DNA of 64,000 nt from an uncultured Prochlorococcus sp. (GTDB lineage Bacteria > Cyanobacteriota > Cyanobacteriia > PCC-6307 > Cyanobiaceae). The stretch lies in NCBI RefSeq assembly GCF_902626525.1, contig NZ_CACOFR010000004.1, positions 66,525-130,524 of the forward strand. The letters run 5' to 3'. Positions 22,206 to 27,321 of this stretch are shown piece by piece; the stretch's first letter is position 1, and each line of letters begins with the position of its first letter. The translations under genes were made by a program, and so were the position numbers. The notes under the pieces are model-generated. The model saw only the letters and a list, made by a program, of their open reading frames with translations. It had not been told where the DNA came from and did not search any database.

Positions 22206-22676
22206 ATGGCTAAAGAGAAAAAAACAAAAGAGTTGGAAACCAACATCAAGACTGATGGATCAATTGAAACAGCAGTTGATAAGGAAGAGAAAAACTTAGT
22301 CACTGAAACTACAAAAAAAGTAAGTTTCCACAATCTCATTAATGAATTTGAAAATGATCAAATAAAAAAAGAATTACCTGAAATTTATGTTGGAGACACT
22401 GTTAAAGTTGGTGTGAAAATTACTGAAGGTAACAAACAAAGAGTTCAACCTTATGAAGGTGTTGTAATAGCAAAAAGACACGGAGGTCTTAATCAGACAA
22501 TTACAGTGAGAAGAATTTTTCAAGGTATTGGTGTTGAAAGAGTATTTATGCTACATAGTCCACAAGTTGCCTCTCTAAAAGTTGAACGTAGAGGTAAAGT
22601 AAGAAGAGCTAAGCTATTCTATCTAAGAGATAGAGTAGGTAAAGCTACTCGCGTAAAACAACGCTTTGACCGATAA
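22206..22676 (+). CDS. rplS: 50S ribosomal protein L19
   Basis: [41 protein letters not shown]...[21 protein letters not shown]. Confidence 0.97.
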
Positions 22677-22729
22677 AGTTGTAAAGTAATAACCTTATTG
22701 GTCACAAAGGCGCTTATAATCATTTAGAT

Positions 22730-22802
22730 GCGTCGTTAGTTCAGTTGGTAGAACGCAGGTCTCCAAAACCTGATGTCGGGGGTTCAAGTCCTCCACGACG
22801 CG
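22730..22802 (+). tRNA. trnW: tRNA-Trp (anticodon CCA)
   Basis: 7-bp acceptor GCGTCGT/ACGACGC, anticodon loop ctCCAaa, T-arm gggggTTCAAGTCctcc; 73 nt, no encoded CCA. Confidence 0.96.
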
Positions 22803-22836
22803 TTTGACCAACATTATGTAAATCATTTTTCATAAG

Positions 22837-23031
22837 ATGGAGTTAGATCTTCAACCTGGGGACGTAGTTAAAGTCCTCGAATCAGCTGCTTTAGGATGGG
22901 TTCGTGCAAGAGTCATCAGAGTTAAATCTGGAGGAAGAGTTGTTGTCCAAAGCGACCAAGGGAGAGAATTCACCGCAAGAGGTAATCAAGTTAGGTTGAT
23001 AGAACCTGCTGGCTTTAGACCTCAAAAATAA
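22837..23031 (+). CDS. Picocyanobacterial hyper-conserved protein (PSHCP), small Tudor/SH3-like putative RNA-binding protein
   Basis: MELDLQPGDVVKVLESAALGWVRARVIRVKSGGRVVVQSDQGREFTARGNQVRLIEPAGFRPQK; lies between tRNA-Trp and tRNA-Asp in the rplS-gltX interval. Identity from memory. Confidence 0.85.
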   Translation: MELDLQPGDVVKVLESAALGWVRARVIRVKSGGRVVVQSDQGREFTARGNQVRLIEPAGFRPQK

Positions 23032-23179
23032 ATATTTCAAAATATTTAGTTAGGTCCAAAACAAACTATTTCTTTAAATCCTCAAATTAAAAATTTTTTA
23101 TTACAACAACATTAATAAAGTATTATGATCTGATAATTTTAAGATTGACGTTCTAATTCTAATTTAGAACTTTAACTTT

Positions 23180-23253
23180 GGGACCGTAGTTCAACTGGTT
23201 AGAGCACCGCCCTGTCACGGCGGAAGTTGCGGGTTCGAATCCCGTCGGTCCCG
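23180..23253 (+). tRNA. trnD: tRNA-Asp (anticodon GTC)
   Basis: Acceptor GGGACCG/CGGTCCC, anticodon loop ctGTCac, T-arm gcgggTTCGAATcccgt; 74 nt. Confidence 0.97.
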
Positions 23254-23270
23254 TTTTTTCTTAAAACAAT

Positions 23271-24704
23271 TTGGAAAAACGTTTAAGATTAGCTCCAAGT
23301 CCAACAGGTTTATTTCATATTGGTACAGCTCGAACAGCGTTATTCAACTGGTTGTATGCACAAAAAATAGGCGGAAAATTTCTTATCAGAATAGAAGATA
23401 CAGATTTTCATCGATCTAAATCAGAATACACAAAAAATATATTAGATGGCTTGCAATGGCTTGGACTTACGTGGGATGATGAACCTGTAAAGCAAAGTGA
23501 ACGAATTTCGATTCACAAAAAATACATCAAAAAGCTTTTAGAATGTGGAGCTGCATATAGATGCTTTACTACAGAAAATGAGATTCATGAATTAAGAGAA
23601 GAACAAAAAAAGAAAGGTTTACCTCCAAAACATGATAATAGACACAGGAATCTTTCAAAAGATGAAATAGAAACATTCATATCTCAAGGAAGGACTTCCG
23701 TAATAAGGTTTAAGATTGATGAAAAAAAACAAATCAGATGGGTAGATCAGATAAGGGGCGAAATCCAATGGCAAGGAAAGGACTTGGGTGGTGATTTAGT
23801 TTTATCAAGAAGGGCTAAAGGATTTGAAATTGGAGATCCTTTGTATAATCTTGCTGTTGTAGTGGATGATAATTTCATGAATATCACCCATGTAGTAAGA
23901 GGAGAAGACCATATCTCTAATACTGCAAAACAAATATTGATTTATGAAGCTTTAGATTTTAAATTACCGAAGTTTTCACATGCACCGCTAATACTAAATA
24001 GCGAAGGGAAAAAATTATCCAAGAGAGATTGCGTTACTTCAATCGACGAATTTAGAGATATGGGATATTTACCAGAGTCTTTATCGAACTATATGGCATT
24101 TTTAGGTTGGTCACCAAAATCTGCCAAGAGTGAATTACTCTCAATTCAAGAGATTTCTGAAGTTTTTGAATTATCAGACATAAATAAAGCTGGAGCAAAA
24201 TTCAGTTGGGAAAAACTTAACTGGATTAATTCTCAATACATAAAAAATATGGAATCAATAAAGTTAAGTAAGATTATTGGGAAATACTGGGATGATATGG
24301 GTTGGAAACCTCCATCTCAAGAATGGGCTATTAAATTGGCTATTTTACTTAGAGACTCGATGATCCTTTTAAAAGATGCCATTGATCAATCAAAACCATT
24401 TTTTTTATTACCTCCAATTCAAAAGGAGGGTAAAGATTTTCTCGAAAACAAGGACGGCAAAGTATCTCTGAAACTTATTTTAAATTATTTAATAGAAAAA
24501 AATACTGGAAAACTACAAAAAGAGAACGCTCATGCAATAATAAACGAAATCTCAAAAATTCATAATATAAAAAAAGGTATTCTTATGAAATCATTAAGAG
24601 TGGCCTTTTTTGGGTGTCTCAGTGGTCCAGATTTAGTTCAAAGTTGGGAACTCTTCTCAGAGAGTAAAAGTGATATATTACGAATTAAAAGATGTCTTAA
24701 TTAA
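23271..24704 (+). CDS. gltX: Glutamyl-tRNA synthetase
   Basis: [23 protein letters not shown] (HIGH), KLSKRDC (KMSKS), [11 protein letters not shown] start. Confidence 0.96.
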
Positions 24705-26250: not shown

Positions 26251-27321
26251 TTAAAAAGGAGGATTTTGTTCATAAAGGGTATTTGCTTGTTCAATAGATA
26301 GTCTCCCTGAGACACCTAATTTAAGAGAACTCAAATGATTCTTAAATTTGATCCTGAACAAAGCTGCTGCTCCAATCATCGCCGCATTATCTGTACAAAG
26401 ATTAATGGGAGCTAAATGAACTTTAATAGATTTTTTACTAGCTTCACTAATCATCATTTTTCTTAACGTATTATTAGCAGCAACACCCCCAACTACAACA
26501 ACATCATTCAAACAATGATCATTTGCGCATCTTATAGTTCTCTCTACCAATACCTCAGCCACTACTCTCTCAAAACTTGCTGCAATGTCAGGAACTGGGA
26601 CGTTCTTACCATCTGAATTTATTTTTTCAACCAATCTTAGTACAGCAGTTTTGAGACCGCTAAAAGAGAAATCATATTTAAGAAATCCACCTTTTTTGTC
26701 AGAAATCCTACATTTTGGCAGCTTAAATTTGAAAGGGTCACCATTCTTCGCAATCTTTTCAATGGCTGGGCCTCCTGGATAACTAAGACCTAATAATCTA
26801 CCAACCTTATCAAAAGCTTCTCCAGCAGCATCATCAAAACTCTTTCCTAGTCTTTGCATTCCTCTTTTCTCATCAACCTTGATCAATTCAGTATGTCCAC
26901 CACTAACAAGTAAAGTAAGAAAAGATTTCTTTGGATAGTTTTCTGAAAATAGAATTGAAGATAAATGTCCCTCTAAATGATGAATTCCCAAAAATGGCTT
27001 TGAATGTAACATGCAAAGTGATCTTGCAGTAATAGAGCCAATTCGTAAACACCCAACCAATCCAGGCGCTACGGTTGATGCAATATAGTCAAGTTCCTCA
27101 ATTTTAAATTTTGATTGAATTAAAGCCTTTTCTAAGACAAAGGGTAATAATTCCAAGTGCTTTCTAGCTGCAAGTTCAGGAACAACTCCACCCCATTTTG
27201 AATGATCGTCAATTTGAGATGCAATTATATTTGAATGAATTCTGAAAGTATCGCCAATATTAGAAACTATTGAGACAGATGTCTCATCACAACTTGTTTC
27301 AATAGCTAAAACTTTGCGCAT
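26251..27321 (-). CDS. tsaD: tRNA N6-adenosine threonylcarbamoyltransferase
   Basis: AIETSCDETSVSIV, HLEGHLSSIL, LVSGGHTELI, VVVGGVAANNTLR. Confidence 0.97.
   Translation of the reverse strand: MRKVLAIETSCDETSVSIVSNIGDTFRIHSNIIASQIDDHSKWGGVVPELAARKHLELLPFVLEKALIQSKFKIEELDYIASTVAPGLVGCLRIGSITARSLCMLHSKPFLGIHHLEGHLSSILFSENYPKKSFLTLLVSGGHTELIKVDEKRGMQRLGKSFDDAAGEAFDKVGRLLGLSYPGGPAIEKIAKNGDPFKFKLPKCRISDKKGGFLKYDFSFSGLKTAVLRLVEKINSDGKNVPVPDIAASFERVVAEVLVERTIRCANDHCLNDVVVVGGVAANNTLRKMMISEASKKSIKVHLAPINLCTDNAAMIGAAALFRIKFKNHLSSLKLGVSGRLSIEQANTLYEQNPPF

Follow-up and report, generated by a model that had tools for sequence, protein, structure and literature searches.

A nearly invariant Tudor-fold protein of picocyanobacteria belongs with the rplS-trnW unit and has a candidate empty site in a related lineage

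Which protein is encoded by a 64-residue open reading frame (ORF) lying between two tRNA genes, how it came to be there and what it does are the questions raised by one locus in the window, the 64,000-nucleotide stretch of uncultured Prochlorococcus DNA analyzed here. All genes of the locus lie on the forward strand. The first gene of the unit, rplS (22206..22676; PF01245, E = 5.3e-46), encodes ribosomal protein L19 and is followed by tRNA-Trp(CCA) at 22729..22803, which lies 33 bp 5' of the ORF across a terminator-free gap (ARAGORN, Rfam and terminator scans). The ORF occupies 22837..23031, in exact agreement in coordinates and sequence with a preliminary description of this DNA. A spacer of 147 bp (23032..23178), whose length and content differ among relatives, leads to tRNA-Asp(GTC) at 23179..23254 (ARAGORN, Rfam), the looser neighbor of the ORF, and then to gltX, encoding glutamyl-tRNA synthetase (23271..24704; PF00749, E = 7.4e-95). 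The translation neighborhood noted in that description is thus borne out by tRNA scans and Pfam. The TTG start of gltX lies 16 bp past the end of tRNA-Asp (window 23254-23271), and the gap is short in most of the relatives listed as well; the two genes may therefore be transcribed together. About 1.5 kb past gltX, the reverse strand carries a tsaD-like ORF (26251-27321; tRNA t6A modification), which, as the kdsB-, LysR- and FMN-reductase-like ORFs mentioned below, is named from its sequence.

The identity of the protein is readily established. A phmmer search against the PDB shows that residues 1-56 are 100% identical to entry 6NNB (E = 2.9e-31), released in 2019 under the title "Solution structure of the Tudor domain of PSHCP", with the protein named "Prochlorococcus/Synechococcus Hyper Conserved Protein". 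In PMC4215834 (2014), the same protein is described with the same gene order (rplS-trnW-PSHCP-trnD-gltX) and the same clade restriction. The ORF at 22837-23031 is therefore PSHCP with near certainty, as the preliminary description had recognized, and since the protein was already known, its identification is not new. In a scan of genome contigs, the nearest carriers are Prochlorococcus. No NCBIfam family matched PSHCP, and the Pfam SH3_1 profile scores it at 21.9 bits, just under the cut-off of 22.9.

Of 400 genomes from the family of the window, 363 encode PSHCP, as do 247 of the 251 that are of good quality, and this recurrence, together with the match to a solved structure, indicates a genuine gene rather than a chance reading frame. 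Seven negative family genomes, three of them of good quality, were opened. Five also lacked a match to rplS, and in the other two the contig ends within ~ 50 bp after rplS, so that these seven lend no support to a loss of PSHCP within the family. Among 386 genomes searched from the phylum, no convincing PSHCP was found outside the family, in line with the clade restriction claimed earlier. Three weak matches (E 0.004-0.009) all fall within one genus of family f31 and cover the same stretch of the query; one of them, opened as a possible distant homolog, is a chance match inside a kdsB-like ORF. PSHCP was likewise absent from 50,697 phage records searched by tblastn and from IMG/VR viral contigs, and the best match to PHROGs reached only E = 0.26. 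The flanks recur throughout the family. Among 80 loci, trnW and gltX each accompany the gene in 78, and trnD and rplS each in 77, most exceptions being cut by a contig end.

The amino acid sequence of PSHCP is strikingly constrained. Most loci of the window's genus encode an identical 64-aa protein, and the two commonest forms differ solely in the last two residues, the longer one (64 aa) belonging to the window genus and the shorter one (62 aa) mostly to other genera. Lower-scoring copies, which we picked deliberately, carry mostly single substitutions or an altered tail. The near-100% identity anticipated in the preliminary description holds as such, with the amendment that a small number of substitutions occur and that the C-terminal tail varies. 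In loci L103 and L108, the start lies two codons further downstream (MDLQPG... vs MELDLQPG...); L108 additionally carries V10L and L19M and is the most divergent complete copy seen. At the DNA level, the codons across 78 loci (76 distinct DNA sequences) use nearly all synonymous forms, and the sole codon that never varies is that of Trp21, a single-codon residue. A nearly invariant protein with varying synonymous codons points to selection on the protein and not on the DNA. Mean pairwise protein identity amounts to 99.5% for PSHCP vs 94% for the adjoining L19 domain, and among the loci listed, the best tblastn segments against the window are 63-86% identical for rplS and 50-87% for the part of gltX inside the loci. 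The remark that the ORF is unusually well ordered for an AT-rich genome was a fair one, as the first 60 codons have a GC content of 46% vs 32% for the window. Since GC at third positions is merely 30%, this excess stems from the fixed amino acids and not from foreign DNA.

The two flanking tRNA genes, paired in the preliminary description, are both present, but their links to PSHCP are unequal. The trnW-PSHCP gap measures 33-66 bp in all 76 loci measured, and the terminator scan found no terminator within it in any of these 76 family loci. In contrast, PSHCP and trnD are separated by anything from 117 to 1178 bp among the loci listed, and in some genera a terminator or an additional gene lies between them, such as a LysR-like ORF in opposite orientation (L053) or an NADPH-dependent FMN-reductase-like ORF (L108, genus g9). 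The spacers of L053 and L054 are long, about 1.2 kb. An intrinsic terminator was detected 24-66 nt past PSHCP in 9 of the 33 loci of the non-64-aa type, compared with 0 in shuffles. The 64-aa type, with 43 loci including that of the window, yielded none past PSHCP by the same criterion, so the boundary of the window's own unit is taken over from its relatives. The tight, terminator-free gap on the trnW side and the terminators and genes ahead of trnD place PSHCP with the rplS-trnW unit rather than with trnD. A motif close to TGCAGTT is found ~ 20 nt 5' of the PSHCP start in many loci outside the window genus (e.g., L048, L050, L051) and reads TATGTAAAT in the window genus; located between trnW and PSHCP, it may act as a promoter or as an element of the leader.

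RT-qPCR data from the literature are in partial agreement with an rplS-trnW-PSHCP unit. According to PMC4215834, most transcripts begin inside or just past trnW, with some read-through from rplS and < 2% spanning the whole of rplS. Hence, the "same unit" stands for read-through and a shared terminator, not for strict co-transcription. Earlier work cited in that paper describes read-through into tRNA-Asp.

A greater level of detail about the origin of the gene is offered by the sequence 3' of rplS in 44 outgroup loci of the same class but of different families. The rplS-trnW adjacency is nearly universal in these loci, with secE-nusG next in most of them, and represents an old cyanobacterial pair; in the window's genome, secE is located on another contig. 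Only two of the 44 loci, both from lineage f10 (L084 and L085), display trnW followed by trnD without PSHCP. This lineage, which we take to be Synechococcus elongatus-like, is generally regarded as a close relative of the picocyanobacteria. Its trnW-trnD gap of ~ 204 bp contains no PSHCP-like ORF in either genome and carries an intrinsic terminator 6-8 nt past trnW; in L084, a promoter-like site lies ahead of trnD. We consider this gap a candidate empty site of the PSHCP gene. A gap with the terminator and without PSHCP suggests that the trnW-trnD adjacency came first, and that PSHCP was later inserted, or originated, in the space from trnW to its terminator. This is the simplest reading, and a secondary loss of PSHCP in f10 is a possible alternative. 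An origin of PSHCP by duplication of rplS is unsupported (hhalign probability 2%), in a test that is weak since the PSHCP profile has near zero diversity (Neff 1). With PSHCP entry between trnW and its terminator as the simplest reading, the candidate empty site dates the origin of the gene by synteny, and f10, with the same trnW-trnD arrangement lacking PSHCP, forms a natural comparison. Tentatively, PSHCP might be a young, lineage-specific part of the picocyanobacterial ribosome or tRNA cycle, born at this site still empty in f10 and early rendered indispensable and frozen, although we hold this full account for doubtful rather than probable. The empty-site synteny and the unit boundary are additions of the present analysis, neither of them found in the literature on PSHCP as far as its text was accessible.

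Gene neighborhood alone does not give the function of PSHCP. The AF2 model consists of five strands (pLDDT 85.6), and its top Foldseek match is 6NNB (TM 0.74-0.79), consistent with the Tudor/SH3-like fold proposed beforehand. Weak structural neighbors follow, namely myosin SH3-like, Spt5/NusG KOW, Tudor, Agenet and ribosomal barrels. With a pI of about 10.8, the protein is basic (11 K/R vs 7 D/E). The literature searched yielded no paper on the PSHCP Tudor structure or on RNA binding. In PMC4215834, PSHCP is expressed with an abundance on the order of RbcL, its transcripts shift along with those of translation genes when N or P is limiting, and a pull-down in three strains links it to L2, PsaD and a Ycf48-like protein; the L2 pull-down is the only link to the ribosome published there. 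The basic barrel, the translation neighborhood and the L2 pull-down are best read together as signs of a ribosome-associated RNA-contact protein. In the picocyanobacterial ancestor, PSHCP appears to have arisen at the end of the rplS-trnW transcription unit, or to have been captured there, and would have been frozen at the amino acid level since then. As a basic barrel it would contact RNA, and there is an even chance that it works as an accessory protein on the ribosome near the large subunit, in the L2 region.

The same pull-down allows for a different emphasis. Its recovery of L2, PsaD and the Ycf48-like protein, repeated in a review, would fit a PSHCP that couples translation to photosystem assembly by residing on ribosomes making thylakoid proteins and handing these to Ycf48 and PsaD. 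However, PMC4215834 presents a single pull-down in which each protein is represented by a small number of unique peptides (1-8), and the PSHCP gene is unlinked to photosystem genes, which leaves this role unlikely. The preliminary description had named tRNA interaction as a natural hypothesis; in such a reading, PSHCP would be a chaperone of tRNAs or a factor of the tRNA cycle, possibly serving the neighboring tRNA-Trp. The close, terminator-free spacing from trnW in every locus measured and a basic barrel fold near KOW/Tudor domains agree with this suggestion; however, rplS-trnW adjacency is general in cyanobacteria without PSHCP, so the neighborhood points to no specific tRNA partner, and tRNA-Asp is separable from PSHCP, rendering this role improbable as well. 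A role as a reader of methyl-lysine or methyl-arginine, as in eukaryotic Tudor domains, would suit the Tudor fold of PSHCP, its Foldseek matches and its weak sequence resemblance to Tudor-SN and further Tudor domains. This role is nevertheless most improbable, since canonical methyl-binding Tudor domains use a cage of three to four Tyr/Trp/Phe, and PSHCP, with a single Trp, two Phe and no Tyr over its entire length, has no such cage available. In a hand alignment to known Tudor cages, the remaining cage positions presumably fall near E15, Q38 and Q41. Telling the trnW link apart from the trnD link leaves fewer transcripts and RNA partners to consider first. The protein concerned is abundant, nearly invariant and private to the clade to which the dominant phototrophs of the ocean belong.

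Compared with the published PSHCP of Prochlorococcus and marine Synechococcus (6NNB and PMC4215834), the solved domain sequence, gene order and clade restriction are all the same here, and so is the two-residue variation in C-terminal length, with the 64-aa form ending in ...FRPQK and that of other genera, mostly of 62 aa, in ...FRP. With Tudor, Agenet and myosin SH3-like domains, PSHCP has the small barrel fold in common, along with weak, sub-threshold similarity to the SH3_1, Myosin_N and Agenet profiles. Unlike these domains, it has no aromatic cage and stands alone in a bacterium. While homology between the L19 and PSHCP profiles is undetectable (hhalign probability 2%), L19, the product of rplS, has an SH3-like barrel too, and the two proteins are alike in this barrel and in their translation context.
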